Shown one piece after another: positions 22,389 to 47,160 of a DNA stretch of 64,000 bases (its first letter is position 1; every line of letters starts with the position of its first letter). Under the pieces are notes generated by a model. It searched no databases and had not been told where the DNA came from. It saw nothing but the letters and a program-made list of their open reading frames with translations. The translations under genes and the position numbers were made by a program. The stretch lies in contig NC_088872.1 in the NCBI RefSeq assembly GCF_032884065.1, positions 34,506,917 to 34,570,916 on the forward strand. The letters are read 5' to 3'. Source of the stretch: Artemia franciscana. Taxonomy: Eukaryota; Arthropoda; Branchiopoda; Anostraca; Artemiidae.

Positions 22389-22419
22389 TGTAACATATAG
22401 ACCAGCCCCCCCCCTCTAT

Positions 22420-22822
22420 AAAATTCAGGACCAAATCCCTCATTCACATCCCCTTAGGAATCCTCAAATATAGGACCAAATCTCTCATCCATACTCTTCT
22501 AGGAACTCTTAAATTCAGGACTAAATTTCTCAGTCACACCCCTTTAGTAAATTTCAATTTGAAAAAGGTTTGGATAAAATCATTTAGAATTTAACAGATT
22601 GCTAAATTTAACAAGTCTGCATAATCCTACGCAGTTAGACTACATGCATTTAGATAAGTGAAAGGTTACTTAACAAGTCAAGTAACCAGTTATTCTGACC
22701 CCTGAGTTTTTCAACAGTCTGCATAGTCCAACGCGGTTGGGTTACGTGCATTTAGATAAAGTAAATGTTACTCAACAAGTTAAGTAACCAGTTATTCTGA
22801 CCTATGGGTTTTTCTCAAAACC
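22420..22822 (+). promoter_or_regulatory. U3 direct-repeat block
   Basis: Three tandem ~45-bp units, each with an A-x-GGAC-x-AAAT core and CTCA, are followed by two ~112-bp units, each with GTCTGCATA, CATTTAGATAA and AAGTAACCAGTTATTCTGAC. Repeated U3 modules are typical enhancer architecture in retroviruses and gypsy elements. The bound factors are unknown. Confidence 0.6.
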
Positions 22823-23085
22823 AAAAGAGAAATCCTTGCCATAAGAACAGCTTTTGGATGCGTGACTAGTCACATGATTAAATATTACCAATAGTAGTGG
22901 AGGTCAACTTCCGCAGGTCACCAAGCCTGTCCGGCAAGTGCGCGCGTTGGATATATGAGCCCAACACAAGGGCGAATAGTTAGTTTTATGGAGAGATTCG
23001 AATGCGTTAGATCAATTGCTCATGTTCGCCTTTTTATGCAATAAGACATTGAAGCTATTTTGTCAATAGTTGTATATTGTAAGTA

Positions 23086-23091
23086 AATAAA
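23086..23091 (+). promoter_or_regulatory. polyadenylation signal in 5' LTR
   Basis: AATAAA, conserved in the 3' LTR, where it would direct 3' end formation of the element's transcripts. It sits ~300 bp before the LTR end, leaving room for R and U5. Confidence 0.55.
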
Positions 23092-23389
23092 CCTTATTGT
23101 ATTTAATCATCTTCTGTCTATGTATTAGGGCATCAGGTACAGTTCCTCTAGCTTTCAGGCACGGTCCCAAGGAATCTATATTTGTTTCAAGAGACCTCGA
23201 ACAACACCGAGATGGTTCTGTCTCCCAGGTTACCGGGGATTCTATACGAAGCCTTTTTATTTTATTAATAATTTAGCTCCATATCCACATCAAACTATTA
23301 AGACTTAGAAGCGTCTCAAGCAACTCAACGCAAAACCCCCTTTAAAATAAACACTAACTAATTATTTAACAAAACCACCCCGTAACATA

Positions 23390-23407
23390 TGGCGCGGTCG
23401 GGTAAAG
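23390..23407 (+). promoter_or_regulatory. tRNA primer binding site
   Basis: TGGCGCGGTCGGGTAAAG begins two bases after the LTR. TGG pairs with a tRNA CCA end. The TGGCGC-GTCGG core is close to the serine-tRNA-type site of 17.6/297-like gypsy elements, but the exact tRNA needs a search of the host tRNA set. Confidence 0.7.
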
Positions 23408-23699
23408 AAAGTAGGAAAAGGAACTGAAAGTACCTACGCAATTAATGCCTACTAACATAGACAAATATGATTACTTACATTTTAATTTTGATTTTAAGTG
23501 CAGTGCAATTTTACCTAGCTTTTGAATTTTTAGGTGCAGTGCGATTTTATTTCTATTTTTGCATTTTTTCTATATAGGTATACCCCATTCAAAAAATATC
23601 AAAATCTTTAAGAAATTAAAATAAAACAGTAAAAATTAAAAAAAAATTTGAGATTATTTTAAACCGCATATTTAAAAAAAAAAAAAGACTACAATAAAT

Positions 23700-24880
23700 A
23701 TGGAACAAGAACAAGATGAAATATTAAAAGCGCAACAAATTATTGCAACTTCGGTAGAAATTGCAAAATCATTACCAGAATATGAAGGAGATACGGACGT
23801 TGATCAATTCAACATCCATTTAGGGCAATTTGTGGAAATGACAAAAATTGACCTAAAAGTATTAAAAAATATGTTACTTTTAAGACTGAAAGGACAGGCG
23901 CTAACATTTCTAAAACAAATCGAAAACTCAATAGGTACAGAAGCAACCTCAACCATTAACTCAATAAAATTATTGCAACAGGCCTTCAGAAAAGATTCAT
24001 CGACACAAGTTCGTTGAATAAACTAAAACATGGCCTAGTTACTTTCGAACAGACGCAAAACGTTCGTGAGTACTTGCATAAGGTTAGAATCGCAACAGAA
24101 GCGCGATACGGTCCAGGAGAAGGGGAATTATATGAAAAAATCATACTAAATGCATTTAAACAGGGACTAAACCCAAAGTTATACCGCCTTTTGATAGCTA
24201 AAAATATTGATAACCTAGAACTAGCAGTTCAGGAAATAGAAAGAGCCGTAGAAATTGATTCGATTGTCCTGCAGCATCAAAAAATGTCAATAAATGCTGT
24301 AGAAAGCAAAGCCCCTGTAAGATCAAGGGATTCCTCTCCGCGATTTTTCTCCCGAGAATCATCGCCCAAACCTGTTCGAAATCAAATTTGAACCACCACA
24401 CCACCAAGACAAGTACGTTTTGCCCCCAATAATCAATTAAGGGCACAAACTAACAATGAACCATTAAGGTGCTACATATGTAACCGATTAGGACATATCG
24501 CAAGAAATTGTTTTGCAAACAATAATTATCGCCCAAATATTAGGGGAACGGGTAACCGTTTGTCCAGGGGGACAAACTATAGTGGGTACGCCCCTAGAGG
24601 CAGTCGAGGGAACACCCTTGTAACAAGAAATAATTATCCCACCCAAAATCAAAATTTCCAACGCAATACGTATCAATATCGAGGAGGGTATCGTGGAAGG
24701 ACAAATCAACCCAATAATAGTTGGAACAGTAGTACAAGAGGAAATTACATCAGCCGACGGCAGCCATATAATAGCTCCATCTCAAATAATAATCAAGGAA
24801 CCCAAAATAGAACAAATGAAAGTTCTACATCTAACATCTGGGAATCCCAGGGAAACGATATAAGCCCCCAAAATTTGTAG
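23700..24880 (+). pseudogene. gag: gag polyprotein, interrupted by one frameshift and one stop
   Basis: Starts at ATG 23700 and would be ~390 residues. The first block (23700-24017) is a helical capsid-like region opening with an acidic/Gln-rich stretch and an LPEYEG segment. A one-base shift near 24010 moves the frame to 24014-24391. An in-frame TGA at 24389-24391 then separates it from the nucleocapsid, which continues in the same frame. The nucleocapsid holds one CCHC zinc knuckle (CYICNRLGHIARNC, 24470-24511) and an Arg/Gly/Asn/Gln-rich RNA-binding tail. The gag stop is TAG at 24878-24880, directly after a slippery heptamer. Gag packages the RNA and forms the particle. The two breaks may be mutations or consensus errors. 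Confidence 0.85.
24871..24877 (+). promoter_or_regulatory. candidate -1 ribosomal frameshift site
   Basis: AAATTTG is read as A AAT TTG in the gag frame, immediately before the gag TAG. It has the X XXY YYZ form, and the -1 frame is open from here into protease with no stop. Position and register are what a gag-pol -1 frameshift site needs. A downstream structure was not assessed. Confidence 0.7.
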
Positions 24881-25524
24881 GACCAAAATTTGGTGGCAAG
24901 ATAATTTATAGGTCCCCCCCAGTAATAATACCATTTTTAAGTGCAAATAATAATAAGATGTTACCAGTATTTGAAAATTTCAACGCAGGGAATATTTATT
25001 TCTCAGCCCTTATAGATTCAGGAGCAACAGTAAATGTGATAAATTCATCAGTATTTAATAAATTACCCAACTATATTAAACGACGAATGAGCAATATCTG
25101 TCCCAATTTATCAAGTGTAACCGGACACGACCTGGATGTGAAAGGCACTGTGTATCTAGCCTTGCGCAAGGATAACAGAAATTTTTATACTCGATTTATA
25201 GTTTGTAAAAATTTTCCATACGAAGCGATAATAGGCGCAAATTTTTTAAAATCAAATAAAATATTATTAGATGTAGCAAATTCAAAGTTTATCTACCCGA
25301 CGGAAAATATAGGTAACATGAAAGAGTATAGAAATAAACAAATTCAAGAAATTTGTTATTTATGGAAAAAACTTGAAAAAATAAAAATTCCAGAAAAAAA
25401 ACCAGCGGAGAATCTTCTAAATTCAATAAAGAAGAAAATAACGAAAAATATTATGGATTTGCAGTGCGTAAAACAAAAATTCCCCCTAAATCAATGCAGA
25501 GGGTCCAAATATCACAAAAGTTAG
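24871..25524 (+). CDS. pol: pol: aspartic protease domain
   Basis: In the -1 frame relative to gag, open from the slippery site. The protease active-site motif LIDSGATVNVI lies ~60 nt after the first Met (24958), and the second structural motif AIIGANFLK follows ~70 residues later, as in retropepsins. It would cut the Gag and Pol polyproteins as a homodimer. A single-base shift between about 25464 and 25524 takes the pol frame into the next block (25464-25667). At least two more shifts occur before the reverse transcriptase. Confidence 0.85.
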   Translation, partial: KFVGPKFGGKIIYRSPPVIIPFLSANNNKMLPVFENFNAGNIYFSALIDSGATVNVINSSVFNKLPNYIKRRMSNICPNLSSVTGHDLDVKGTVYLALRKDNRNFYTRFIVCKNFPYEAIIGANFLKSNKILLDVANSKFIYPTENIGNMKEYRNKQIQEICYLWKKLEKIKIPEKKPAENLLNSIKKKITKNIMDLQCVKQKFPLNQCRGSKYHKS

Positions 25525-25817
25525 AACCAGTTAATGATAAAAATGAAATTTGGGTAGCATCGCCTTGGGAAGATCTCCCGAAATATTTAGTGTGTGAAGA
25601 ACAAATTATAAATTACGAAAAGGGAGAAGGTTACATTTGGGTAACGAACACCACGAAAACGACCTAATTACCCTAAGTAAAGGTACATGTTTAGTAGAGA
25701 TACAAGTAGTATCGGAATCCGATATTAATAATTGGAAAAATTTGGAAAAAAACTACGTGAATAATATTAATGTTACGTTGACAGAGAATATCCACTGACG
25801 CGATCTCAATTCCTTGA
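25525..25817 (+). pseudogene. pol: pol: protease-RT connection, multiply frameshifted
   Basis: The coding sense can be followed through two further frame changes (one block ends at 25667, another at about 25797) before the RT frame opens at 25818. The blocks look like ordinary pol linker with no named domain. Whether the shifts are real or consensus errors is unresolved. Confidence 0.5.
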
Positions 25818-26669
25818 GAAATTCGAACTAAGTCACATAACCGACGTGTCATTAAACAAAAATTATGCGACTTATTATGGGAATATAAAGATGTCTTTTC
25901 GACATCTGAAGATGACATAGGACTTATCCCATTTTATGAACACGCAATACAAACCACGGGGCCACCAGTCGCAAAACAACCATACAGAATTCCTTATAAA
26001 CATAAGGAATGGCTAATAAACAAAATACATGAACTCGAAAAAAATCAAATCATAAGGCCAAGCATAAGCCCATACTCTGCCCCCGTTATTTTAGTCCCGA
26101 AAAAGAATAATGATCTTAGACTAGTGGTAGATTATAGAGCTTTAAATAAACAAGTAGTAAGTGACAAATTTCCCCTACCTAGAATAGACGAAATTCTAGA
26201 CTCAATATCAAATAAAAATAAAATATTTACTTCCCTAGATTTGACACAAGGATATCATCAAGTAAAAATAGCTGAGGGCGATGTTTTTAAAACAGCTTTT
26301 TCAACTTCAGAATGTGGTTCTTATGAATACTTAAGAGTACAATTTGGACTAAAAACTAGTTCGAGTGCATTGTGTAGACCCCTCCTTCATTTACTAAGAG
26401 GCCTAAATAACATAATTCATTTTGTTGATGACGTCATAGCTATGGACAAAGACGCGGAGGACCATTTAGAGACACTAGCAAAAGTGTTTGGGAAATTTAG
26501 AGAAGGCAATTTAAAATGTAGACCAGAAAAAGTAAATCTTTTTCAAACAAAACTAAAATTTTTAGGAGTAGTTGTAACGCAAGGACAAATTTCCCCAGAC
26601 CCTGAAAAAATAAAATCCGTTAAAAATATAAAGCCCCCCAAACAATTAAACAATTACGAGGAATCTTAG
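25818..26669 (+). CDS. pol: pol: reverse transcriptase domain
   Basis: Open in one frame from 25818 to 26669. Ty3/gypsy RT landmarks appear in order: LLWEYKDVFS at the N-terminus, PYRIPY, SPYSAPVILVPKKN, LRLVVDYRALNKQ, FPLPRIDEI, FTSLDLTQGYHQ (first catalytic Asp), and FVDDV at 26421-26432 (the YVDD position). It copies the RNA genome into DNA. The palm-thumb end is near PDPEKIKSV. The frame ends at 26669, a few bases before the RNase H frame opens at 26675, so one more single-base shift separates them. Confidence 0.9.
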   Translation, partial: EIRTKSHNRRVIKQKLCDLLWEYKDVFSTSEDDIGLIPFYEHAIQTTGPPVAKQPYRIPYKHKEWLINKIHELEKNQIIRPSISPYSAPVILVPKKNNDLRLVVDYRALNKQVVSDKFPLPRIDEILDSISNKNKIFTSLDLTQGYHQVKIAEGDVFKTAFSTSECGSYEYLRVQFGLKTSSSALCRPLLHLLRGLNNIIHFVDDVIAMDKDAEDHLETLAKVFGKFREGNLKCRPEKVNLFQTKLKFLGVVVTQGQISPDPEKIKSVKNIKPPKQLNNYEES

Positions 26670-26674
26670 GATTA

Positions 26675-28369
26675 ATGAGCTATTTCCGAAAATTTATAAG
26701 AAATTACGCACAAGTTGCAAAACCTTTAACGGACCTCACGAGAGGCAACCCACAAAAAATTGTGTGGTCTAATACAGCTCAGAATGCATTAGATCATTTA
26801 AAAAAGGCTCTAACCTCAGAACCTATTTTATCGCTACCTGACTTCCAAACAGGACAATTCGTTGTTACAACGGATGCCTCAAACAAGGGAATTGGGGCGA
26901 TCCTCTCCCAAATAATAAATGGGGAAGAAAGAGTGATAGCGTACGCTTCTCGCACCTTAACTTCTGGAGAAAGTAATTATTCTGCTACACAGCTTGAATT
27001 ATTATCAATTATCCACCATTTGGACAAGTTCCGACATTATTTGGTAGGCAGAAAATTTAAACTGCGTTCAGACCACAAAAGCTTGCAATATCTGCAAACT
27101 TTCAAAAAGCCAACGGGAATGCTCGCGAGATGGATTTTGAAAATCCAAGACTTAGATTATGAATTTGAACATCTTAAGGGAAAACAAAATGCCCCATGTG
27201 ATTATCTAAGTAGATTTCCAGATAATACCCCAGTAGAAAATGAAAATGAAGAAGTCAACACAATAAAAGCAAAGTATGTTCCAAGAAAGAAAGGTTTAAA
27301 AATGAAATCGGCTGAGAATAATTCGGTTGAGAAGGAACAGAAAGACAGCCCACTTTCCTTGAATTCTATAAAAATATATCAAAAGAAAGATAATACTTGT
27401 GCTGCTCTAATAGAATATTTCTTATATGATAAAGAGTTACCTGATGAAATGAAATCTTTTAAAAAAGAAATTGATAACTATTATTATGATTTCGACGAAA
27501 AAATACTATGTAGGATAATAACCGATACTGATAAAAGAAATCAAACTTCCGTTATACCAGTTTTACCCCAAATTCTGGAAAAACCCGCTTTTGAATTTTT
27601 TCATTCTGAAGTAGGTGGTCATTTGGGAATAGATAAGACATTCCATAGATTAAAACAATACTTTTTCGTTACTTCTGCCTTAACAAAGTTAAAGAATTAT
27701 GTTAATAATTGTGAAACCTGTAATTTAAGAAAAAATCCCCAAGTCTACCCGAATCCAACGATAGGAAAAACGCCTACGGCCCGGTTTCCATTTGACATAG
27801 TCTCTTTTGATTTATATGGTACAAGTGGAGGATTACCCACGTCTAATGAAGGACATACCTGTGTACTGTCAGTAATCGATCATTTTTCTGGTTTCACATT
27901 TGCTAAACCTTTAAAAAATCAAAGCGCTTATGCGACTTCGAAAGCTCTTGCCAAAATATTTCTTAACTTCGGTATTCCTAATACAGTATTAAGCGACAAT
28001 GGCCCTAATTTTGTATCGAAAGTAACCAAGGATTTAATGTCCTTCCTTCAAATAAATAAATTGGTATCGACCCCCTATCATCCACAGGCCAATGGGAAAA
28101 TCGAGAACAGACACAAACTATTTTCTAATATTTTAAGTATTTATACGAAAGAAAATCACAGGGATTGGCATGATACCTTGCCTTATTTAACAAATGTTAT
28201 AAATACAGCTTACTCCCAGGTCATTCGCGATAACCCATTTTATATATTATTCGGACGAGACTTTAGAATCCCTTATAATGAAATTATAGAGTCACGACAA
28301 TTTTATAATGATTCTCAAGATTATAAACAAGAATTTATCAATAGAATGAGGAAACTTATAAACTTGTAA
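26675..28369 (+). CDS. pol: pol: RNase H and integrase
   Basis: 564 codons. RNase H lies at about residues 60-185, with catalytic positions TTDAS (Asp67), LELL (Glu108) and RSDHK (Asp133). The integrase follows. Its HHCC zinc finger is at His310, His316, Cys346 and Cys349. The catalytic core has Asp379, Asp441 (SDNGPNF) and Glu477 (GKIENRH), with exactly 35 residues between the last two, the D,D35E pattern. The frame stops at 28369 because a poly-A run (GAGGAAACTT near 28350) is one base shorter than in the duplicate copy at 32274, where the frame reads on. The break is therefore either an error or private to this copy. Confidence 0.93.
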   Translation: MSYFRKFIRNYAQVAKPLTDLTRGNPQKIVWSNTAQNALDHLKKALTSEPILSLPDFQTGQFVVTTDASNKGIGAILSQIINGEERVIAYASRTLTSGESNYSATQLELLSIIHHLDKFRHYLVGRKFKLRSDHKSLQYLQTFKKPTGMLARWILKIQDLDYEFEHLKGKQNAPCDYLSRFPDNTPVENENEEVNTIKAKYVPRKKGLKMKSAENNSVEKEQKDSPLSLNSIKIYQKKDNTCAALIEYFLYDKELPDEMKSFKKEIDNYYYDFDEKILCRIITDTDKRNQTSVIPVLPQILEKPAFEFFHSEVGGHLGIDKTFHRLKQYFFVTSALTKLKNYVNNCETCNLRKNPQVYPNPTIGKTPTARFPFDIVSFDLYGTSGGLPTSNEGHTCVLSVIDHFSGFTFAKPLKNQSAYATSKALAKIFLNFGIPNTVLSDNGPNFVSKVTKDLMSFLQINKLVSTPYHPQANGKIENRHKLFSNILSIYTKENHRDWHDTLPYLTNVINTAYSQVIRDNPFYILFGRDFRIPYNEIIESRQFYNDSQDYKQEFINRMRKLINL

Positions 28370-29721
28370 AACAAGAAATAGAAAGATCAAAAAGAAAGCA
28401 AGAAGCAAAAAATATTCCTAACGTCAAGGGTAAACTCGATTTCCAAGTAGGAGATTGCGTTTACGTAAAAAACGAAAACAAATCGGACGGCAAGAAACTT
28501 TCGGACCGGTACCTAGGACCGTTAAGAATAATTAAGAGGTATGATAATAATGTTACATTTAAACTATTAAAACCAAAAACAGGAAAAATTTATAAAACCC
28601 ATGTTAGTCGTATAAAAAGGGCAAAATTCACAGAAACATGGACCCCTCAACCTTCAACATCAAATACCTCGGAGGACGAAAATCAACCTCCTCGCTCTAG
28701 ATTAAGTGAGCTTAAACCTTTTAATTTCAAACAAGGATATTATGAAAACAGTAGTGACGAAGAAAAATTTAATGAATTTCTAACCATGACAAATATGGTT
28801 ACCCCCCCAAAAAGTACCCCCGTTACGCGGAGACGGAGGAATAGCGATTCTTCCTCCAGTGAAGAATCAGAAGAATTGGACTATACAATTTCTCCACAAA
28901 CGCAATTTTTCCCGGATCGAATTTCGACACCTTTTCCACCAAAACGTTTCCCCGATGATTTGGTAAACCCTGTCACACCAATAGACAGACCCTTTTCATT
29001 ACAAGATGAATTAAATAAGGCTATACAGACCCCTGGTGACATGGAGTCAGAAAATGTCTACCAACCGCAACAAACATTGCGGGAGGCCATGGATCTTATT
29101 AATTACCCAATTAAAACTAGACAAAGTACACTTGATACTAATCCAGCTACAGATGAACAACAATATCACGATATAACCGTCTCAAAGGCAAAACCAAAAG
29201 ACTGGGTATCTTGGAAGGAAACCTTAATACAAACTCTTCTTCACCCCCCGGAAGACATGGCTTTCAAGCAGTGGAGGCACCCCAAGAAGACATTTGAATC
29301 CTCCTAAAGCTCCCAAGAATCGTTCAATTCTCCCGAACCCAGAGATCAACAGGACGAGTCAATCAATAAACCCTCCACTTCACGAAGTGAAGAAATTTAC
29401 GAAGGTCGAGCTGGATCTACACCTAAATCTCAAACTTCTACTTCAAGAGAACCAGATACTAAATCTACAACTAGTTCCTCAGATACTGAGAGTGAATCAG
29501 GTACAAATGAGCCCAAAGATGTGGAAGGAACAAGACCACAAAGTGCAACTGCCCAGGCTAAAAAGGCACAAATTAAAGGTCAAAAATTTCTTAAAAAACA
29601 ATATAAAAAGTTTGACTTGATATCGCTAGCGAAGCCAAAGAAAAAAACCGAGTCTACCGAAGAGAAGATAACAACAAGGTCAGGCCGAGTTGTCAAAAAA
29701 CCAGATAAATTAGATTATTAA
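28370..29721 (+). pseudogene. pol: pol: integrase C-terminal region and long tail (copy A), broken
   Basis: After the one-base shift the integrase continues through a GPY/F-like module (DRYLGPLRII) that helps DNA contact, then a ~370-residue low-complexity tail rich in Ser, Pro, Glu and Thr. The tail ends with TRSGRVVKKP-x-KLDY before the TAA at 29721; the SGR-x-V-x-KP-x-KLD ending is common in gypsy pol. A TAA at 29305-29307 interrupts the frame opened at 28786. The region is repeated at 32290-33644. Confidence 0.7.
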
Positions 29722-30762: not shown

Positions 30763-31362
30763 ATGTCCAAAGCCATTATAGATACAGAATTTATTTCAAT
30801 TATCCATGCTAAGGAAAACATTATATATGCGGCCGCGATCTTAGTTCAAGATGAGAATGGTAAAGAGGTGTATGCTGAAACATGGTACCTCAATTACGAT
30901 TTAACAAAATTTGAACCTCATACATATAGATTTGGCTTAAAATTAGCAAATACTCTTAAATATCGACCCGCGAGAGGAGAAGTAAAAATAAAATATTCAA
31001 ATAAAAATAAGAAAGGAAAAAACTTGACAAGCCTTCAACTATTAATAAGAAAACTACAACAAAAATTTAATATAAGCTATTGGTTTTGCAAGGGTCCGAA
31101 TCAAACCGATCTACTTTTAATTGATAAATGTAGACCACCGAAAATTTGTTATAAGATCGAGGAAAATGAAAATTGTATTAAGTACGAAGGAATTCACCGC
31201 CCCTTAGATGAAATCCGACATTACGCCAAATTTATGTATGATCCAACGTCCCAAAATTACGCAGTAAGGGGAAATAACATTTTCTTAAAGAGAAAAAAAT
31301 CGGTAGAAGCAAAAAAAGACGCATATAAAGGTAAATTAAAATCAAAAAAATTCAAACAATAA
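30763..31362 (+). CDS. accessory ORF 1: possible DEDDh-type 3'-5' exonuclease (copy A, intact)
   Basis: 199 codons. The N-terminus IIDTEF has the D-x-E exonuclease motif I (Asp7, Glu9), followed by the hydrophobic strand and the D-E-N-G-K turn usual in DnaQ/DEDDh folds. A candidate motif II Asp is in GPNQTD (about residue 116). A candidate motif III is GIHRPLDEIRHYAKF (His145, Asp149), although the His-Asp spacing is one shorter than the usual H-x-A-x-x-D. The C-terminus is very basic (about 30 residues of Lys/Arg). Lengths and motif order suit a small exonuclease of the RNase H fold, but the assignment is from motifs only. The role in the element is unknown; viral DEDDh enzymes elsewhere proofread or degrade immune-stimulating RNA. 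Copy B at 34686-35284 is frameshifted. Confidence 0.5.
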   Translation: MSKAIIDTEFISIIHAKENIIYAAAILVQDENGKEVYAETWYLNYDLTKFEPHTYRFGLKLANTLKYRPARGEVKIKYSNKNKKGKNLTSLQLLIRKLQQKFNISYWFCKGPNQTDLLLIDKCRPPKICYKIEENENCIKYEGIHRPLDEIRHYAKFMYDPTSQNYAVRGNNIFLKRKKSVEAKKDAYKGKLKSKKFKQ

Positions 31363-31611: not shown

Positions 31612-31711
31612 NNNNNNNNNNNNNNNNNNNNNNNNNNNNNNNNNNNNNNNNNNNNNNNNNNNNNNNNNNNNNNNNNNNNNNNNNNNNNNNNNNNNNNNNN
31701 NNNNNNNNNNN
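31612..31711. other. assembly gap, 100 N
   Basis: Exactly 100 N, the conventional placeholder for a gap of unknown size. Both flanks end in the same duplicated block. Confidence 0.99.
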
Positions 31712-33644
31712 CATTTGACATAGTCTCTTTTGATTTATATGGTACAAGTGGAGGATTACCCACGTCTAATGAAGGACATACCTGTGTACTGTCAGTAATC
31801 GATCATTTTTCTGGTTTCACATTTGCTAAACCTTTAAAAAATCAAAGCGCTTATGCGACTTCGAAAGCTCTTGCCAAAATATTTCTTAACTTCGGTATTC
31901 CTAATACAGTATTAAGCGACAATGGCCCTAATTTTGTATCGAAAGTAACCAAGGATTTAATGTCTTTCCTTCAAATAAATAAATTGGTATCGACCCCCTA
32001 TCATCCACAGGCCAATGGGAAAATCGAGAACAGACACAAACTATTTTCTAATATTTTAAGTATTTATACGAAAGAAAATCACAGGGATTGGCATGATACC
32101 TTGCCTTATTTAACAAATGTTATAAATACAGCTTACTCCCAGGTCATTCGCGATAACCCATTTTATATATTATTCGGACGAGACTTTAGAATCCCTTATA
32201 ATGAAATTATAGAGTCACGACAATTTTATAATGATTCTCAAGATTATAAACAAGAATTTATCAATAGAATGAGGAAAACTTATAAACTTGTAAAACAAGA
32301 AATAGAAAGATCAAAAAGAAAGCAAGAAGCAAAAAATATTCCTAACGTCAAGGGTAAACTCGATTTCCAAGTAGGAGATTGCGTTTACGTAAAAAACGAA
32401 AACAAATCGGACGGCAAGAAACTTTCGGACCGGTACCTAGGACCGTTAAGAATAATTAAGAGGTATGATAATAATGTTACATTTAAACTATTAAAACCAA
32501 AAACAGGAAAAATTTATAAAACCCATGTTAGTCGTATAAAAAGGGCAAAATTCACAGAAACATGGACCCCTCAACCTTCAACATCAAATACCTCGGAGGA
32601 CGAAAATCAACCTCCTCGCTCTAGATTAAGTGAGCTTAAACCTTTTAATTTCAAACAAGGATATTATGAAAACAGTAGTGACGAAGAAAAATTTAATGAA
32701 TTTCTAACCATGACAAATATGGTTACCCCCCCAAAAAGTACCCCCGTTACGCGGAGACGGAGGAATAGCGATTCTTCCTCCAGTGAAGAATCAGAAGAAT
32801 TGGACTATACAATTTCTCCACAAACGCAATTTTTCCCGGATCGAATTTCGACACCTTTTCCACCAAAACGTTTCCCCGATGATTTGGTAAACCCTGTCAC
32901 ACCAATAGACAGACCCTTTTCATTACAAGATGAATTAAATAAGGCTATACAGACCCCTGGTGACATGGAGTCAGAAAATGTCTACCAACCGCAACAAACA
33001 TTGCGGGAGGCCATGGATCTTATTAATTACCCAATTAAAACTAGACAAAGTACACTTGATACTAATCCAGCTACAGATGAACAACAATATCACGATATAA
33101 CCGTCTCAAAGGCAAAACCAAAAGACTGGGTATCTTGGAAGGAAACCTTAATACAAACTCTTCTCACCCCCCGGAAGACATGGCTTTCAAGCAGTGGAGG
33201 CACCCCAAGAAGACATTTGAATCCTCCTAAAGCTCCCAAGAATCGTTCAATTCTCCCGAACCCAGAGATCAACAGGACGAGTCAATCAATAAACCCTCCA
33301 CTTCACGAAGTGAAGAAATTTACGAAGGTCGAGCTGGATCTACACCTAAATCTCAAACTTCTACTTCAAGAGAACCAGATACTAAATCTACAACTAGTTC
33401 CTCAGATACTGAGAGTGAATCAGGTACAAATGAGCCCAAAGATGTGGAAGGAACAAGACCACAAAGTGCAACTGCCCAGGCTAAAAAGGCACAAATTAAA
33501 GGTCAAAAATTTCTTAAAAAACAATATAAAAAGTTTGACTTGATATCGCTAGCGAAGCCAAAGAAAAAAACCGAGTCTACCGAAGAGAAGATAACAACAA
33601 GGTCAGGCCGAGTTGTCAAAAAACCAGATAAATTAGATTATTAA
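31712..33644 (+). pseudogene. pol: pol: integrase core and tail (copy B)
   Basis: The same product as 27789-29721. Here the integrase frame reads through the poly-A run that breaks copy A and stays open to 33543, but a T missing near 33164 (relative to copy A) shifts the frame inside the tail. The natural C-terminus (SGRVVKKPDKLDY, ending 33644) is then out of frame. The two copies break at different places. Confidence 0.85.
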
Positions 33645-35284: not shown

Positions 35285-35306
35285 ACAAAATCTACATTTT
35301 TTTTTT

Positions 35307-35308
35307 AG
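35307..35308 (+). promoter_or_regulatory. candidate splice acceptor before SOCS-box ORF 1
   Basis: A run of ten T ends in AG, 92 bp before the ATG at 35400. The same feature is in copy A near 31385. Confidence 0.45.
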
Positions 35309-35399
35309 ACGAATCACCAAAAGGACTCAAGGCGGAAAAAGGTAATTACTCATTAGATAATTAGCCTGCTTATACGTGTGACTAATACTAACCAGGAAA

Positions 35400-36479
35400 A
35401 TGCCGAGACAAAGAACCTTAAGTAATACCGACAACCTAGAACCCGACCAAGATCTGATGTTTGCGAGACCAGAATTTTGGATTTCAAATAAAACCCTAAG
35501 TTTACCAAACCTCTCAGTAATAGACTATGAACTACGGGAAATAATCTTCGAATCCGCAATAACTAATGCAGTAAGGAACTTGGAATATAATACCTTATAT
35601 TCATTATTGCAAGTTCCCGTTATTTTTAACGAGGATCTCCTAATACACGGAATAATCATCCTATTATACGGATCATTTTCACTGGAAATATTGAGCAAAG
35701 ATTACGATTATAGGCACAAGAATGCTGCATACACCTTCGCAGCCCTACTCCGAGCGATGCCCCCCGTTGCGTATCCTTTAATAGCATCTTTAATACGCGA
35801 AAATTTTTGGCACATAGAACAAGAATCAGGTTTCAAAATAATATGGCCCTTAAAGTTTCTGGACTTACTACTAAATGTGAATTATAAAATTGTGGAAGAT
35901 GAAAATATATTGTTGGGAATATATGAGCACTATTTGAGATACAGTACTAATTTTGACCCAATAATTGTAAAAAATTCATCCCATTATATTTATGATGAAC
36001 AGTATATGGAGTTAATAAGTGTAACGAGAAAATTCTACAAGAATGATGAAAATTTTGGATCAAAAATTTTGCCAGATAAAGACATCATTGTGTATGAGAA
36101 ATTCCTAGACACAGCTAGCCCACTATGCTTTCGTAAGGAATTGACTTATAAAATAATTCACACGACCTCAGATGAACTCAGTCTAAAAGATCTATGCAGG
36201 AAGAAAATACGGCAAATATTAAGAAAAACGGACATTAATTATTCCATGCAAAGCCTCTATATTCCCACTTTCCTAAAGAAATACATAATGTACATGGAAA
36301 ACGGCCCTGGAATCAACGAAAAGGACTTCCAATTAACATTTAAAACCCCCTACCTTTTAAAGTCACAGTGCAATTTACTGGCCAATAGTGGGCCAATTTT
36401 AAGAATAACAGAAAATTATGAACTAGACGGTCCCTTTTTACCCTTTACCACCCTTATTTTTTCCTCCCCCCTTATGTAA
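35400..36479 (+). CDS. accessory ORF 2: SOCS-box protein 1
   Basis: 359 codons. Residues ~30-230 are predominantly helical, with no domain I can name, and are shared with the next ORF (matching SLPNLS, TLYSLLQVPV and ENFWHI...IIWPLKFL segments). Residues 261-300 (36180-36299) form a SOCS box. The BC-box SLKDLCRKKI fits [S/T/P]L-x-x-x-C-x-x-x-hydrophobic for Elongin C, and a Cullin-box-like LYIPTFLKKYIMY follows 15 residues later. In SOCS/ASB proteins this motif assembles an Elongin B/C-Cullin-Rbx ubiquitin ligase, and the upstream domain picks the substrate. Inference: the element uses host ubiquitin ligase to remove a host protein. The substrate is unknown. A tail of ~59 residues follows the box, which is unusual since SOCS boxes usually end the protein. 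Confidence 0.8.
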   Translation: MPRQRTLSNTDNLEPDQDLMFARPEFWISNKTLSLPNLSVIDYELREIIFESAITNAVRNLEYNTLYSLLQVPVIFNEDLLIHGIIILLYGSFSLEILSKDYDYRHKNAAYTFAALLRAMPPVAYPLIASLIRENFWHIEQESGFKIIWPLKFLDLLLNVNYKIVEDENILLGIYEHYLRYSTNFDPIIVKNSSHYIYDEQYMELISVTRKFYKNDENFGSKILPDKDIIVYEKFLDTASPLCFRKELTYKIIHTTSDELSLKDLCRKKIRQILRKTDINYSMQSLYIPTFLKKYIMYMENGPGINEKDFQLTFKTPYLLKSQCNLLANSGPILRITENYELDGPFLPFTTLIFSSPLM

Positions 36480-36662: not shown

Positions 36663-37769
36663 ATGCCATTAAATGGAACCTTAAGTTATCCCAACCTTAC
36701 TAGGTTGAGGAATGGGGACAGTTTTGATATAAAAACTAGAACCATAAAAACTCCCCCCAGATACCTCAAAAACCGAACAGCTTGGTTTCCATGTAAAACA
36801 CAAAGTTTGCCAAATTTGTCAAAAATTGAACACAATTTATTAGACCAAGATTTCGAAAATGCCGCTAAAAAAGCAACAAGAGAATTACAATACCGAACTC
36901 TCTATCTACTTCTAGAAATTCCTGTAAGCATCACTAATAAGTTGATAACAAGAATTTTGATCATCTTGTTATTTTGTTCATTTACACGCAAAATGAGAAA
37001 AGAAAACTTCCAGCACAAACAGCAACTTGCGTCTCGGACTTTTACGATCTTACTTAACAAAATCCCCCTCAAAAAATACCCTCTAGTTGCAATATTGATC
37101 AGCGAAAATTTCTGGAGAATCTATAATGACAAAGGCTATACAATCATATGGCCTCTCAGATTTTTGTCAATATTGATAAAAAGAAATACAAATGTCTTGT
37201 TGGAAAAACCAAGCATACTAAACAAAATTTATAAAGACTACAAGAACCATTATTCAGCTAGTAATTTGATAAGAAACGGCCGAAAATTCCATATTTATGA
37301 ACCAGATTACAATGAACTGAAACAAATAATCTTTACCTGTAGCGAATGCGATGACAACTTTGCGTCAAAAATAGCGCCTCAAACAGATATAATCGTATTT
37401 GAAAAATTAATGAACTGTAAGGACCCCCTATTTTTCCATAAAATATTAATTTTCAAAGTAATCCATAACGTGTCAGGACTCTTAACCTTAAAAGAACAGT
37501 GCAGAAGGCACGTCCGACTTCTTATGCGGAAAAGAAATATAAATTATACCCTGTGGAGCCTTCAAATACCTAAAAATGTACAAAAATATCTTATGTTCGC
37601 GGAAGACAATTCAGAAAATAAAGGTCAAATATCTGAATTAACCTTTTGGTCAGCTCCTATTCCTAGATCAAAAGATTTTTTAACATATATAGGCGGACCA
37701 ATTTTCAACGTGCAAAATAATTTCGACATCAACTGTGGAACAAAACTGTCTACTTTAAAAAAATTTTAA
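36663..37769 (+). CDS. accessory ORF 3: SOCS-box protein 2, paralogue of ORF 2
   Basis: 368 codons, a diverged tandem duplicate of the preceding ORF. The segments SLPNLSKIE, LQYRTLYLLLEIPV and ENFWRI...IIWPLRFLSIL align in order, and both leaders share CCTGCTTATA shortly before the ATG. The SOCS box is at residues 275-314 (37485-37604): BC-box TLKEQCRRHV and Cullin-box-like LQIPKNVQKYLMF. Keeping both halves of the box while the rest diverged suggests selection for ligase recruitment and different targets. The reading frame is intact. As in ORF 2, a ~54-residue tail follows the box. No membrane segment or signal peptide seen, so the protein is probably cytosolic or nuclear. Confidence 0.8.
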   Translation: MPLNGTLSYPNLTRLRNGDSFDIKTRTIKTPPRYLKNRTAWFPCKTQSLPNLSKIEHNLLDQDFENAAKKATRELQYRTLYLLLEIPVSITNKLITRILIILLFCSFTRKMRKENFQHKQQLASRTFTILLNKIPLKKYPLVAILISENFWRIYNDKGYTIIWPLRFLSILIKRNTNVLLEKPSILNKIYKDYKNHYSASNLIRNGRKFHIYEPDYNELKQIIFTCSECDDNFASKIAPQTDIIVFEKLMNCKDPLFFHKILIFKVIHNVSGLLTLKEQCRRHVRLLMRKRNINYTLWSLQIPKNVQKYLMFAEDNSENKGQISELTFWSAPIPRSKDFLTYIGGPIFNVQNNFDINCGTKLSTLKKF

Positions 37770-37870: not shown

Positions 37871-37899
37871 AAATTGGACTTGTCTAAAGATATGAAGTA

Positions 37900-38535
37900 A
37901 TGGAATCTCAGCCGAATTACTTCCTCGCAATCCAAGTTAAAAACCCTCAGATAAGGATGAATGCTTCATTAATGCAAAAACACGTAATTGAAACAAACCC
38001 TAAGTCAACAAAAGCCTTAATCAAACAAAACTCCTTCCATCTAACGTTAAAAGTATTGCATCTGAAAAATAATACTGAAATTGAACATGTAAAAAGTGCT
38101 TTTGTCAAGACCGTAGAAAAATATAGACAAAATTTCATAAATGAAAAACTTTATCTTGATTTTCAAGGCATCGGGGATTTCTTTGAGCAAATTATATATG
38201 CGAAATTAGAGAACGAAGAGGTAGTTAAAACGCGCCTAAATCCAATCATAGAAGAAATCTCGAAAAAAATTACCAAAAGCGGAGTACGAAATGTAAATCA
38301 AGAAAACTGGAAGCCACATTTAACGTTAGTTGACCTAAGAAAAGTAAAAAAGCTAAGGAAAGAGGCACGAAAACTTCACCCCTCCTTAACTTCCAATTTT
38401 AAAAACATGAAATTTGGAAGAGAACTTGTAAACGGGTTACAATTACTATCAATTTTCGGACCCAAAAGCCAAGAAAACTATTACGAGATAATAGCAGAAG
38501 TAGAGTTTGAACAAAACACCCCTAAATACAACTAA
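37900..38535 (+). CDS. accessory ORF 4: 2H phosphoesterase, AKAP7-like
   Basis: 211 codons, intact. Two H-x-T motifs define the 2H fold: FHLTLKV (His47, Thr49) and KPHLTLV (His140, Thr142), about 90 residues apart. The N-terminal PNYFLAIQV, the central LDFQGIG and the C-terminal YYEIIAEVEF match, in order, the AKAP7/AKAP18 central (NLS) domain as I know it. That domain is a 2H enzyme able to cleave 2',5'-linked oligoadenylate. Viral relatives in some coronaviruses and rotaviruses blunt the OAS-RNase L pathway, and phage 2H enzymes such as Acb1 destroy cyclic nucleotide signals. Inference: here it may degrade a nucleotide second messenger (arthropods use cGAS-like receptors) or process RNA ends. 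It was probably captured from a host AKAP7-type gene. Confidence 0.85.
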   Translation: MESQPNYFLAIQVKNPQIRMNASLMQKHVIETNPKSTKALIKQNSFHLTLKVLHLKNNTEIEHVKSAFVKTVEKYRQNFINEKLYLDFQGIGDFFEQIIYAKLENEEVVKTRLNPIIEEISKKITKSGVRNVNQENWKPHLTLVDLRKVKKLRKEARKLHPSLTSNFKNMKFGRELVNGLQLLSIFGPKSQENYYEIIAEVEFEQNTPKYN

Positions 38536-39464: not shown

Positions 39465-39711
39465 CGACAAGATAATTGGGATAAGAGAGTATTTCTGCAT
39501 AATGAGAAAATGCTTATTTTTTTAACGACAAGATAATTGGGATAAGAGAGTATTTCTGCATAATGAGAAAATGCTTATTTTTTTTTTACGACAAGATAAT
39601 TGGGATAAGAGAGTATTTCTGCATAATGAGAAAATGCTTATTTTTTTAACGACAAGATAATTGGGATAAGAGAGTATTTCTGCATAATGAGAAAATGTTT
39701 ATTTTTTTTTT
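39465..39711. repeat. four tandem copies of a ~61-bp repeat
   Basis: Copies start at 39465, 39526, 39589 and 39650, each with CGACAAGATAATTGGGATAA and TTTCTGCATAATGAGAAAAT, differing mainly in the length of the T run. Confidence 0.93.
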
Positions 39712-41200: not shown

Positions 41201-41206
41201 ATAAGA

Positions 41207-44200
41207 ATGATGATCTTAACATTTTTGATGACCGTGTGTATAGGTGCCCATACACAAGATGTCGTAAAGCATGGGATAATATTCAAACACGAAAATTCAC
41301 TTCTAACTAGTAACAACGCTTGGAAAATTTTTATGAAGCTAGACCCTAAACCATTTGAAACATTATTCCAACAAGTTATAAGACTGGAGAAAAATACATT
41401 TGACCTAAAAGAATCAATTTTTCAATTTTTAAAATCAGACAAGGGACTACAAGCAAGCAAAAACAACCATAAGGAAAAGAAAGAAACATCCCCTAACTCT
41501 CCCAAGGTCAAAACAAAAAGAATAGTAGATGATTTTGATGCGAAAATGGCCGAAATCGATAAAGCTATAGGATTCGGAAAAACCATTGAAAAAAGAAAAC
41601 GAAGGTCAATTAACGAGGACCAAAACTCAGATATCGATAAAGAGACCCAAAATACAATTGAGCCAATCAAGACACAACTTAAACAAAGAAAATTATACGA
41701 TGGACAATATGCGTTATTGAACGAATTGCCCACAGTATGGAATTTCTTCAAAGAACTATGGAATGGACCAAAACAAATTAACAGGGCTAAGAACAAACCA
41801 ATACAAGAAAAAATAGATTTATCTGAAATAAAACCAACGAAGGTTGAAACGAGAGACATAACCAGTATTTCCCAATATACACAGCAAACCGCTACAATTG
41901 AAACCCAAGCAACAAGTATTGTATCTGACCTCGTAACGCGAACAAATAAAATACCAGAGATAATAAGAGGTATAGAAAATATTGAAGTGGGATTGAATTC
42001 CACTAATGGTACCAGCAAACCAAAATACAAGTTTAAATGTCAATATTTCTGTAGAATAATAAACGTCACAACGGAAGCTACCAAAATCAACACGACCGCC
42101 CATGTTCCACGTATTACGTCTTATACCGACGAAAGCACAAACGGATTAATGGAAATCCCCAGAAGCACCGAAAAGGAATACGAAACGACTACTTTTTGGA
42201 AATACGATACTCAGAACGAGGAAACCACAGCAGAAACTGATTTCACTCCAACAACAATCGAAACTGAACATACCCCAATAACAGAAGTGGAAGAAACATT
42301 CCCTCGTCAAACCCCACGACGACTGACCCACAACCAATAGAGTTAGATACCTCAATATCAGAAATTACTACAAGTACTATCCCTGGTGTACTAATGCCAA
42401 TTAAAAACGATGAAATTTTAATAACAGTAAGGCAACCATGGCAATCAACTAGCTGGATATGGACTTCTTCGAAAAAGGGAAGAATACAAGTTAGATGGCA
42501 AATCCCTTTTGTCGAGACAGACTATGGAAGAACACGATGTGTGGATGGAGACAAAAAATGTCAAGATGAAGGTCACTGGAGAGAATGTTGGACAATAGAT
42601 GGTAAAAAAACTTGCGCGCGACTGACCATGGCCGACGAACCAGCAAAGGATGAATTAGAACCCCTCCCGGAATTAACCATGGAAAATGCTCATAAAATCT
42701 CAACTCATCAGGCATTCCTTATCTTATATAGACAAAGGTTAGAGGCGTTATTTGAACTATTCAATACAGAAATACAAAAACTTAAACAAAGCACTACACG
42801 TATATTCGAAGTATTTTTCCGAAGAAGTAAATATAAACGATCAACAAGTCTAATCCCAATAGTAGGAGAACTTGCTTCCCGACTATTCGGTTTGTCAACC
42901 GAAGAAGATTTGAATATACTAAGAGATAATGTTAAAAGACTCAACACAGCCATGAATACAACACTACATGTCCAAAAAATACAAGCAAGCATAGCCAATT
43001 ACCAAAAAGACAAAATCGAGGCTATATCCAAAAAAATATCAAGAACAGTCAGCACAATGAACTATTTAAAAAATGAGGTAGACAGAGTAATCTCTGATTC
43101 CAGCCTAACGATGGTGTCACTAGACATTGTTATTATGTCTTTGTTGAACTTAGCCACTGATGTCAGTAAATTTGAATTCGCGTTATTTGAGTTAACAGGA
43201 GGTACTCTTTCTTACGACTTAGTGGATCCCTCGGATCTTAAGAACATCCTAAACGAAATAAAGACTCACTTAACATTTGGTCTCCACTTACCAGTAGAAC
43301 CAGAAGTAGCTAACTTGTTTTTATATTATACCAAACTAAAGGTGCATATTACCGAGATCAATGAGCAACTATTTGCTGTAGTCACAATTCCTTTGATTAA
43401 TCAACAATCCATATACGACCTATACAAAATATCTACATTTCCAATCAACATTAAGGAGACAAACTCCTTCATGAGCATCATCCCAGAAGCGGAATATATG
43501 TTAATTGATCAAGATAGAAGAAAATACGCGTTAGCAAATACCGAAGAATTAAAAGAATGCGTGTCATTTAAAAATTTGGTCTGCCAACTTACATTACCTA
43601 TATATAACGTAAAGATAGGATCATGCATGCTAGATCTATTCCTAAAGGAATCGCAGCAACAAAATATTCCTGATTCTTGTGAAGCCTTAATAGGAAATAC
43701 CAAAAGAGAAACTTTCATTAATTTACGAAACGACTTATGGTTATTTACAGTACCTAAAAAGACGGTAGGAACTCTATCCTGTTATAATAATACAGAAAAA
43801 ATTGACCCCAGCTATCGAACCGAAATATTATTACAAGATGTTGGGACTATTACAATCAAACAAGGTTGCAGACTTGTAACTAAAGAAACAACCGTCCAAA
43901 CACCTCTAATCACAACCAGCACTAACGTCATGAGCCCAAAAATAATAAATTTTCAAGGAATAAACTTGTCCTTCACGATTCCGAATATAAATGATGAAGA
44001 ATCTAAAACATCCATATGGCCAAAAATAGAAAAGATCAAAGGTACAATGCAATTAACAAAAATAAAGGAAGCGTTAGATATGCAAATACCCTTATTCACT
44101 AACGAAGACCAAAGATTGAAATACGTGGAGAGCCAGTACGGTTTGTTCTCACCAAACTCATGGTATAATATTATAATCACAATATTCATGGTATTTCTTA

Positions 44201-44331
44201 TTTCACTAACAATAAGAGCGCTACTAACAATTAACTATGGGAAAATACTGAAGAGAAAAAGGATAAACACTGATGCAATTGAGGCACAAGAGATGCATCA
44301 ATTGAACCCTACTGCTCCTGATGATATTTAA
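41207..44331 (+). pseudogene. env: env: F-type envelope fusion glycoprotein, split by one frameshift
   Basis: The upstream block (41207-42340) opens with a hydrophobic signal-peptide-like stretch, then a charged region with a basic RKRR site and a Thr/Glu-rich mucin-like stalk. The downstream block (first Met 42394, to 44331) has a Cys-rich segment, a KYKR furin-like site (residues 146-149 of that block), a fusion-peptide-like stretch ending in ASRLFGL, heptad-rich helices, scattered Cys, and a transmembrane segment near residues 590-613 followed by a short basic tail. The layout matches the baculovirus F/errantivirus Env family (Baculo_F). The downstream frame is open upstream past the stop of the first block, so a single-base indel within roughly 42.25-42.34 kb splits one gene. 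Env would let particles enter cells. Whether the break is real is unknown. Confidence 0.85.
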
Positions 44332-46155
44332 GCCATTTTAACAGGGAGGATGTAAAAATCCGGGGAAATTAAGAGGTCTTTCTCCGTACGTAACATCCTT
44401 TCCCTACTGTAGAAATATTGTTGGTGTATAACAGCTAGAAGGCTATGATACAACATACTGTATTACTTTTTGGCATATACATCAAAAATACTCTTGGCAG
44501 AAAATCTTTATGTAAATATAGACCTCTAACAAGAACGAAAAAATTCGTTCTATCTTTTTATGTACAAGAGATTTAAGAGGTCATCTCTTGTAATTTTGCT
44601 GAACTATTTCAAGAAAAGGGAAACAACGTTCCAAGGCGTGATAATTGAAAGGCTATGATGCAAAATGTATTACTTTTCGACTAATCACGCATTGGAGGTT
44701 CAATTTTTTTTTGATTAAAATATGATCTAAAACATTAAGACCTCTATATAATCTTACATATATATAACCCTCTTTAGTGCCGTGTTCTTATATTTACATG
44801 TAATCATAATAATATAGTAATAGTGTAGTACCAATAAAACTATTTTCAGTTGCTATATGACCAAATATACCTCACGTTACTTCAAATGTACCTGAAAATT
44901 ATTAGAATTTAAAACTTCTTTTAAGAAATCGTACATTCGATTTCACTTTGAGTGTTTGAAAAAAAAATATAATATTACTGTTATGCAATTATGTACTATT
45001 ATTATGCAATTTAAAATAATGCTTTATATTATCGTATCACTAGTACCATTTTATATGTTAACAACATGATTCTGCTTGGAAATTTTTATTACAGAATTTG
45101 GCATACTACAAAAATTGGCCAACAAACGTCATGGTCAAAGACTACAAAACACCTATCATGATTTATCAACCACCGAAGAATGCCCAAGACACGTCTGATT
45201 CAACCGGAAAACTATCACCCATCCTTCATTTCTGACTATACGATGTAGACTAGAGAAAACGAAACATCCAACCAGCGGTACGACAACGTACCCACGCAAT
45301 ACACCATTAGTGAACCCAATTCAATATGGAAACCCTCACACACCTAATGAAGTTTTAGAACAGGAGATCCTAAGTCCTAATTTTTTAAACTTAGGAATCA
45401 ACTAACAAGTAAGGTGTTAAATAGTACTCCAGTCTATTGTATTAAATTAAGATAACGCAAAAGACAATTAAGATAACGCTTAAATGCAGAAGAGAGCGGG
45501 AGCAGGACAGAAGAACTGTAGTACCGGCCGTACCTTTGTACTTAAACTGCTGGGGATAGGTGATTCTGAGTCCCGCGCTTCCCATTTTGTAAAAGCGTAA
45601 AAACAAAAAATCTTTACTTTTGCTAAATGGTGATAAATTAGAAAATAACAATATATTTGTTCAATCAGTGAATAGGGCAAGGACACGAAAATTGTGATTG
45701 GTGTGAAACTAATATCCAGAGCTAATAAGAGATGAACATTTAAAAAAGTGCCAAATAGTGAATTATAAATTTAAGTGAATGAAAGTGCCAGTGAATCTTT
45801 TTATATTACGTCGTGTATTTTATTTTTATTGTTAAAATACCTGGGATCAATTAAAAATCAGATTAACAGTTAAAACAGTTAAAAGATATAAAGTAAAAAT
45901 GAACAATTGGAACCAGGTATTCGATTGTAATAACAGTTAATGTCAAGTGTTGTGGTTAAATAATTTTTTTTAGTGCTAGGTGCAGGACATATATACATAA
46001 GGTGTAGGAAAATATTTCTGAAATTTTAATCATCATTTACAAGGTTATGGAATTATAATAAAATTTTTATAAACAATAAGGAATAAAATGCAATATTTAA
46101 AGAGAGAGATTAGACTGATTGATGGGGACATCAATCTACAATGGGAAAGGGGATA
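44332..46155. other. 3' non-coding region of the element
   Basis: AT-rich, with no supported gene. It holds two similar ~30-bp segments with GGCTATGAT and TATTACTTTT (about 44441 and 44649) and short inverted repeats such as AACGAA/TTCGTT near 44535 and TACAAGAGAT/ATCTCTTGTA near 44562-44593. Confidence 0.55.
46143..46153 (+). promoter_or_regulatory. polypurine tract
   Basis: GGGAAAGGGGA ends two bases before the 3' LTR, the position from which plus-strand DNA synthesis is primed. Confidence 0.8.
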
Positions 46156-47160
46156 TGTAACATATAGACCAGCCCCCCCCCCCCCCTCTATAAAATTCAG
46201 GACCAAATCCCTCATTCACATCCCCTTAGGAATCCTCAAATATAGGACCAAATCTCTCATCCATACTCTTCTAGGAACTCTTAAATTCAGGACTAAATTT
46301 CTCAGTCACACCCCTTTAGTAAATTTCAATTTGAAAAAGGTTTGGATAAAATCATTTAGAATTTAACAGATTGCTAAATTTAACAAGTCTGCATAATCCT
46401 ACGCAGTTAGACTACATGCATTTAGATAAGTGAAAGGTTACTTAACAAGTCAAGTAACCAGTTATTCTGACCCCTGAGTTTTTCAACAGTCTGCATAGTC
46501 CAACGCGGTTGGGTTACGTGCATTTAGATAAAGTAAATGTTACTCAACAAGTTAAGTAACCAGTTATTCTGACCTATGGGTTTTTCTCAAAACCAAAAGA
46601 GAAATCCTTGCCATAAGAACAGCTTTTGGATGCGTGACTAGTCACATGATTAAATATTACCAATAGTAGTGGAGGTCAACTTCCGCAGGTCACCAAGCCT
46701 GTCCGGCAAGTGCGCGCGTTGGATATATGAGCCCAACACAAGGGCGAATAGTTAGTTTTATGGAGAGATTCGAATGCGTTAGATCAATTGCTCATGTTCG
46801 CCTTTTTATGCAATAAGACATTGAAGCTATTTTGTCAATAGTTGTATATTGTAAGTAAATAAACCTTATTGTATTTAATCATCTTCTGTCTATGTATTAG
46901 GGCATCAGGTACAGTTCCTCTAGCTTTCAGGCACGGTCCCAAGGGAATCTATATTTGTTTCAAGAGACCTCGAACAACACCGAGATGGTTCTGTCTCCCA
47001 GGTTACCGGGGATTCTATACGAAGCCTTTTATTTTATTAATAATTTAGCTCCCATATCCACATCAAACTATTAAGACTTAGAAGCGTCTCAAGCAACTCA
47101 ACGCAAAACCCCCTTTAAAATAAACTCAAACTAATTATTTAACCAAACCACCCCGTAACA
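46156..47160 (+). repeat. 3' long terminal repeat
   Basis: 1005 bp, near-identical to the 5' LTR. Differences seen are the length of the C run near the start, single-base homopolymer indels, and about three substitutions near the end. Followed by CTAG at 47161-47164. Confidence 0.95.

Follow-up and report, generated by a model that had tools for sequence, protein, structure and literature searches.

An env-bearing Ty3/gypsy element of Artemia franciscana with a module of four accessory genes retained among its genomic copies

A 64 kb stretch of the genome of the branchiopod crustacean Artemia franciscana (NC_088872.1, positions 34506917-34570916; hereafter the window) was found to contain a long terminal repeat (LTR) retroelement with gag, pol and a baculovirus-F-type env. 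Four further open reading frames (ORFs) lie between pol and env, as had been proposed by an initial annotation made from the sequence of the window; their order is EXO, SOCS1, SOCS2 and 2H (Table 1). These genes are retained across copies of the element and in a second subfamily, the motifs of the SOCS-box and 2H products are conserved among the copies, and the accessory genes bear the mark of purifying selection. The reading that we favour, and regard as reasonably probable, is that of a young, multi-copy, env-bearing Ty3/gypsy endogenous retrovirus (Metaviridae, errantivirus-like) that has become 'complex', its accessory module acting by the mechanism proposed below.

As assembled, the element covers 24,772 bp (22389-47160). 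Within it, positions 27789-31611 and 31712-35533 represent the same sequence (99.87% identity) on either side of a gap of 100 Ns, differing by two substitutions and three one-base indels over 3824 columns. As three of these five differences are one-base indels, the two images were read as overlapping contig ends, and an assembly overlap is the simplest reading of the repeated 3.8 kb; the 24.8-kb span is thus due to this stretch having been assembled twice around the gap. Subtraction of the duplicate and the gap gives a unit of approximately 20.85 kb, so the length of ~20.8 kb given initially holds for the unit, not for the span as assembled. A true tandem duplication of 27789-35533 was rejected, as pol-env distances in seven other copies fit a single image. 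In all seven of the copies checked, the env part corresponding to 42394-44328 starts 9.9, 10.4, 10.0, 10.6, 10.5, 10.1 and 10.3 kb past the pol match, against 10.1 kb in the window when the duplicate and gap are subtracted. The 3.8-kb stretch present twice might also be taken to indicate an assembly chimera that accounts for both the length and the accessory block; these distances confine the artefact to the duplicate, leaving such an explanation with hardly any credibility.

The LTRs, primer-binding site (PBS)-like stretch, polypurine tract and target duplication reported by the initial annotation were all recovered. Aligned over 1006 columns, the two LTRs (termini 5'-TGT...ACA-3') differ by 3 mismatches and by 8 gap columns, of which five fall in one C run. 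This small divergence (three substitutions in approximately 1 kb, with no rate applied) indicates that the insertion is young.

Profile matches of pol (RVP, 1.4e-4; RVT_1, 1.6e-26; RT_RNaseH, 2.5e-34; H2C2, 4.4e-13; rve, 1e-10) follow the order protease, reverse transcriptase, RNase H and integrase between the LTRs, which is that of Metaviridae (Ty3/gypsy), and the RNase H-integrase piece matched Ty3 Gag-Pol among PDB sequences (7.2e-49). A zinc knuckle was identified in gag (E 2.5e-5). For env, Baculo_F was matched by two parts searched separately (2.9e-6 and 8.6e-18), with no Baculo_F line in the Pfam search of the whole ORF, and phmmer gave a match to a solved 'fusion protein' (9w4d, 7.3e-14). 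An F-type envelope and a 4-bp target duplication (CTAG) are features of errantivirus-like elements. Troyka elements, in contrast, are defined in the accessible part of PMC12440569 by CG..CG termini and a 3-bp duplication, which the TGT..ACA termini and 4-bp duplication found here do not fit.

The window copy is structurally complete, not coding-complete: gag, pol and env each fall into pieces in several frames, with the four accessory ORFs open. The gag, pol and F-type env first described are therefore upheld as to identity by profiles, and not as intact coding sequences. Across the genome of A. franciscana (1.27 Gb, 6,468 contigs), 77 places were scored for pol out of 2,373 first-look candidates, and in 24 of these the pol match lies within an open frame of at least 1,640 aa. 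Furthermore, env is a single open frame of 903-1036 aa (counted stop to stop, in pieces cut by their ends) in four of seven pieces fetched from other copies.

Among the accessory products, SOCS1 matched the SOCS_box profile at 1.1e-6 (29.1 bits, over the Pfam cut-off of 23.5) and possesses a BC box (SLKDLCRKKI) and a cullin-box-like motif (IPTFLKKY); six of the ten members of its alignment match SOCS_box at E 0.1. SOCS2 is 38% identical to SOCS1. By family membership, through the SOCS1 profile and the motifs of both, the two are candidate Elongin-cullin ligase adaptors, with binding predicted. The model of the SOCS1 N-terminal region had a predicted local distance difference test score (pLDDT) of 56.5, and its Foldseek matches were all at E >0.04, with helical-repeat proteins among many others. 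The 2H product gave matches to AKAP7_NLS (Pfam, 9.1e-37) and to the AKAP7 gamma structure 5jj2 (7.5e-26). With this domain and two HxT/S motifs it was assigned as an AKAP7-like 2H phosphoesterase, for which 2'-5' cleavage is predicted. The pairing of ubiquitin-ligase adaptors with a 2H phosphoesterase, as first suggested, is thus borne out by profiles and motifs, with one of the two SOCS boxes above the cut-off. For EXO, matches obtained with hhalign and VIA go only as far as to suggest a DEDDh-type exonuclease fold. A Maelstrom-like origin of EXO, raised by a Cys/His cluster, was dropped as it had no Pfam support. Elsewhere in the genome, contig C3608:251181-303026 was found to carry six EXO-like places approximately 7-16 kb apart, all with stops, which may be old copies in a local array.

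Examination of other copies showed that the module accompanies the element. EXO was found no more than 12 kb downstream of pol, on its strand, in at least 60 of the other 76 pol copies scored; the count is a minimum, as the EXO list holds the best 150 of 490 candidates and some pol copies sit at contig ends. Its start lies 2.08-2.81 kb past the pol match in 57 of these 60 copies (2.40 kb in the window). Module intervals were then compared for the 39 of the 76 copies nearest to the window's pol, and hence mostly of its subfamily, with SOCS matches of 55% identity or less left out of the counts. All four genes were present in one order in 26/39 intervals, some broken or partial. Two further intervals were without SOCS2 and two reached a contig edge after SOCS1; one each contained SOCS2 and 2H alone, 2H alone, and weak 2H fragments. 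In two more (L018 and L019), a SOCS2 stub is joined to a shortened 2H, the breakpoints being similar in both, and as these loci at different sites share the deletion, which extends from the start of SOCS2 into 2H, the deleted form seems to have spread. When ORFs were called by a looser criterion (EXO 27, SOCS1 26, SOCS2 20 and 2H 24 of the 39 loci), the BC box was retained in 25 of 26 open SOCS1 ORFs and in 20/20 of SOCS2, the cullin-box-like motif in 26/26 and 20/20, and both HxT motifs in all 24 open 2H ORFs.

Two intervals of a second subfamily (B) were added beyond the 39, one further copy having no room for the module. The pol of subfamily B is about 88-90% identical to that of the window (~89%), with EXO at 81%, env at 80% and 94% (two parts), 2H at 51% and SOCS at 45%. 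EXO and 2H are present in both of the copies sampled, and in the one copy with ORFs listed they flank a SOCS ORF (the 45% being to SOCS1), and all three frames are open. Moreover, in the single copy examined for it, a further SOCS paralogue was identified directly before env (31-36% identical to the other SOCS proteins; SOCS box of 19.4 bits, under the cut-off). The open module in subfamily B, together with this extra paralogue, indicates that the module is older than the present burst of copies and that SOCS genes duplicate.

The same gene order, for which the initial annotation had proposed a search, was recovered in other host-genome copies, and these collinear copies, along with subfamily B, speak against the module being absent elsewhere or consisting of unrelated transposons nested in one copy. 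Other LTR elements are known to carry extra ORFs (from the part of PMC5408684 available) and broken copies of the module exist, which would suit an origin of the extra ORFs as chance host captures or nested transposons without function for the element. This origin was rejected as very improbable, in view of the single gene order in 26/39 intervals, the position of EXO downstream of pol, the ORFs open in a subfamily with ~89% identical pol, the retained motifs and ratios of nonsynonymous to synonymous substitution (dN/dS) well under 1. The data instead support the extra genes, as judged by their sequences, belonging to the element family.

Comparison of the window with one subfamily B copy gave a dN/dS of 0.078 for EXO (bootstrap range 0.040-0.127) and 0.093 for pol (0.065-0.124). 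Values of 0.16 for 2H (0.08-0.29) and 0.24 for SOCS1 (0.12-0.36) are rough, their synonymous sites being near saturation, and SOCS1 and SOCS2 are saturated with respect to each other. Within the 39 loci, the corresponding ratio of differences (pN/pS) between intact copies and the window was 0.135 for EXO, 0.322 for SOCS1, 0.555 for SOCS2 and 0.699 for 2H, and 0.127, 0.349, 0.441 and 0.423, respectively, over all intact pairs. Full-length copies intact by a DNA criterion numbered 21/32 for EXO, 15/30 for SOCS1, 20/25 for SOCS2 and 23/28 for 2H. These results support purifying selection on the accessory genes, for which the initial annotation had proposed a test. Synonymous divergence (dS) rose from 0.61 in pol to 1.46 in EXO and reached about 2 in both SOCS1 and 2H; this inequality suggests that the histories of pol and the module are partly different, for example through recombination.

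These values also bear on whether the element is an ordinary errantivirus whose 'accessory' proteins are recent copies of host genes, of no lasting importance and confined to one young burst. Homologues with a named organism were all from A. franciscana (five protein matches, one in one search and four in the 2H search), and the LTRs are nearly identical, as this would predict. However, synonymous sites have diverged between the window copy and subfamily B by 0.6 (pol) to 1.5 (EXO), which makes the module much older than the burst, and we consider the proposal unlikely.

The activities, targets, expression and infectivity attributed here to the proteins of the element are predictions, and counter-defence is the likeliest role for the module. 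Gag, Pol and the baculovirus-F-type Env would provide for replication and cell-to-cell spread, and the module between pol and env for the accessory proteins. A SOCS box serves to bring in Elongin B/C together with a cullin, which Vif does via its BC box. The SOCS-box proteins of the element would be bound to Elongin B/C and to a cullin RING ligase, with their variable N-terminal region presenting a host restriction factor to the ligase in the manner of lentiviral Vif. The 2H protein would destroy a 2'-5'-linked nucleotide alarm. The vertebrate pathway of 2'-5'-oligoadenylate synthetase (OAS) and RNase L is not known from arthropods, which do have cGAS-like receptors, so that a cyclic dinucleotide made by such a receptor would be a more likely target than 2'-5'-oligoadenylate (2-5A). 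EXO would act on RNA as a trimming enzyme, probably a 3' exonuclease of DEDDh type, and its substrates may be small RNAs directed against the element. In the portions of the sources available, viral AKAP7-like phosphodiesterases (PDEs) antagonise OAS-RNase L (PMC10835031), and the cyclic dinucleotide cGAMP is cleaved by the LigT-like PDEs that phage and avian poxviruses encode (PMC11410667).

It may be instead that the accessory genes aid replication, with EXO trimming RNA or cDNA of the element at its ends, 2H repairing or trimming RNA ends, and the SOCS proteins adjusting cell state or virion assembly. EXO is the slowest-evolving of the accessory genes and is constrained like pol, which fits a core enzymatic step, and the authors of PMC5408684 propose, in the part available, that DEDDy exonuclease ORFs of rotifer LTR elements might process the 3' ends of element RNA. 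Against this, the divergence of SOCS and 2H between subfamilies, faster than that of pol, env and EXO, resembles an arms race, as expected of host-facing genes, and the multiplication of SOCS paralogues is likewise more like that of host-facing genes, although the histories of the module and pol may differ. A role in replication is accordingly a secondary possibility, to which we give a minor share of belief.

Several observations weigh against the counter-defence reading of a conserved module. Synonymous sites are near saturation for SOCS1 and 2H, and SOCS2 is saturated against the B SOCS, so that this pair yields no point ratio. Constraint on 2H within the window's own subfamily is weak (pN/pS 0.70 against the window copy, 0.42 over all pairs), and full-length frames are broken in 11/32 copies for EXO, 15/30 for SOCS1, 5/25 for SOCS2 and 5/28 for 2H. 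No scored EXO lies near 16 of the 76 pol copies, four of the 39 intervals are without any module, SOCS2 is wholly or mostly lost in four of the 39, and short contigs may be alleles of one insertion, so that the 39 loci are not all independent. The SOCS_box match of SOCS2 (0.0032, 18.1 bits) is under the Pfam cut-off. The histidine of the first HxT motif of 2H is lost in one (P0030) of the 12 relatives covering the site, the motif not being covered in another relative (P0031). For EXO, searches of Pfam, PHROGs, PDB sequences and Foldseek gave no significant match, the predicted model has a pLDDT of 44, and the VIA Z is not above the level usual for models without true matches.

Gypsy and the errantiviruses normally carry gag, pol and env in well under 12 kb. 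The Artemia element resembles errantiviruses and insect endogenous retroviruses (gypsy, ZAM; Metaviridae) in its Ty3/gypsy-type pol, 4-bp duplication, gag-pol-env order and baculovirus-F-related env (features taken from the available parts of PMC12992720 and PMC12440569). It differs from them in its length of ~20.85 kb, its four accessory ORFs, an env frame of up to 1,036 aa and the inclusion of 2.7- and 1.8-kb stretches without long ORFs. It parallels the lentiviruses in having accessory genes between pol and env and a predicted BC-box ubiquitin-ligase adaptor, as in Vif. Unlike these, the carrier is a Ty3/gypsy-type element that also possesses enzymes, and a SOCS box with a cullin-box-like motif stands where Vif has a zinc-binding site. 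LTR elements of bdelloid rotifers also have extra enzyme ORFs, one of them exonuclease-like: as far as the accessible text of PMC5408684 goes, their extra ORF3 encodes a DEDDy exonuclease or a GDSL esterase, and most Vesta and Juno members are without a bona fide env. Those rotifer elements that encode the DEDDy exonuclease offer an earlier example of LTR elements acquiring an enzyme; in the Artemia element, by contrast, several genes stand alongside env and EXO is DEDDh-like. The AKAP7-like PDEs of nidoviruses and rotaviruses (PMC10835031) and the LigT-like PDEs known from phage and from avian poxviruses (PMC11410667), as described in the parts available, share two HxT motifs and the AKAP7_NLS/2H family with the 2H protein, which differs in being carried by a retroelement of a crustacean.

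Among the literature matches listed (titles and abstract starts, with few subscription journals), none described this Artemia family or named an LTR element carrying SOCS-box or 2H genes. The combination of these accessory genes with an F-type env was also not found in the available parts of PMC5408684, PMC10835031, PMC11410667, PMC12992720 and PMC12440569. No relatives of pol or SOCS were confirmed in viral contigs, in a search from which records of the A. franciscana genome were possibly excluded.

A wider proposal, which we hold tentatively and with somewhat less than even confidence, is that the element represents an old, independent lineage of crustacean complex retroviruses: errantivirus-like, with an expandable counter-defence module of SOCS adaptors, an AKAP7-derived messenger phosphodiesterase and a small-RNA exonuclease, and as such an invertebrate counterpart of lentiviral accessory genes. 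The initial annotation, which had seen in the element a complex-retrovirus-like lineage in invertebrates, is on the whole partly supported. The accessory genes by which viruses counter host restriction are regarded as typical of the retroviruses of vertebrates. If the proposal is correct, the same strategy would have arisen separately in a metavirus, with several ligase adaptors and possibly a messenger-cleaving enzyme. It would point to undescribed restriction factors and nucleotide signalling in crustaceans, for the discovery of which the accessory proteins would be natural probes, and with dozens of copies within one genome their evolution would be directly testable.

Table 1. Features of the Artemia franciscana element, given as positions within the window
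Feature	Position	Strand	Description or basis
Target-site duplication	left 22385..22388, right 47161-47164	.	CTAG, 4 bp; flanks
5' LTR	22389..23387	+	999 bp, TGT..ACA
PBS-like stretch	23390..23407	+	begins TGGCGCGGTCGGG; two bases past 5' LTR; flank reading
gag region	23676..24880	+	zinc knuckle near end, frame broken here; profile search
pol region	24835..29721	+	protease, reverse transcriptase, RNase H, integrase; several frame breaks here; Pfam profiles
EXO	30763..31362	+	199 aa, no Pfam family; D-x-E, T-D and H-x2-L-x-E motifs resembling those of DEDDh exonucleases
Assembly gap	31612..31711	.	100 N; sequence
Second image of 27789-31611	31712..35533	+	assembly overlap, includes frame-broken EXO image; self-comparison
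SOCS1	35400..36479	+	359 aa; SOCS box, and an N-terminal region predicted with low confidence to be helical
SOCS2	36663..37769	+	368 aa, SOCS1 paralogue; BC and cullin-box-like motifs present
2H	37900..38535	+	211 aa, AKAP7-like 2H phosphoesterase, both HxT motifs; AKAP7_NLS profile
61-bp unit x4	39465..39711	+	in the 2.7 kb that separate 2H from env and contain no long ORF
env, F type	41207..44331	+	overlapping frames 41207-42340 and 42268-44331; profile and phmmer
Polypurine tract	46143..46153	+	GGGAAAGGGGA; directly ahead of 3' LTR
3' LTR	46156..47160	+	1005 bp

An exact 30-base part of the 61-bp unit was found one to three times in 8 of 61 loci, most loci ending short of the site, and the number of units seems to vary among copies of the element. 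On either side of the element, an inverted repeat of approximately 800 bp was identified (21375-22168 and 51223-52037, 88% identical), with more pieces of it near 47.8 and 52.4 kb. A tRNA-like stretch at 1197-1277 (Rfam RF00005, 39.2 bits; no call with ARAGORN) is perhaps a tRNA-derived repeat; considered as a source of the primer, it was rejected, since by eye it did not fit the PBS. A tandem satellite of 175-bp units extends from 8625 to about 15200 with 37 register copies, most of the 30 listed being 97-99% alike to the reference. A second run of Ns (56 bases) is situated at 56620-56675, and the end of the window (62652-64000) is occupied by diverged tandem repeats of roughly 300 bp with positive GC skew.

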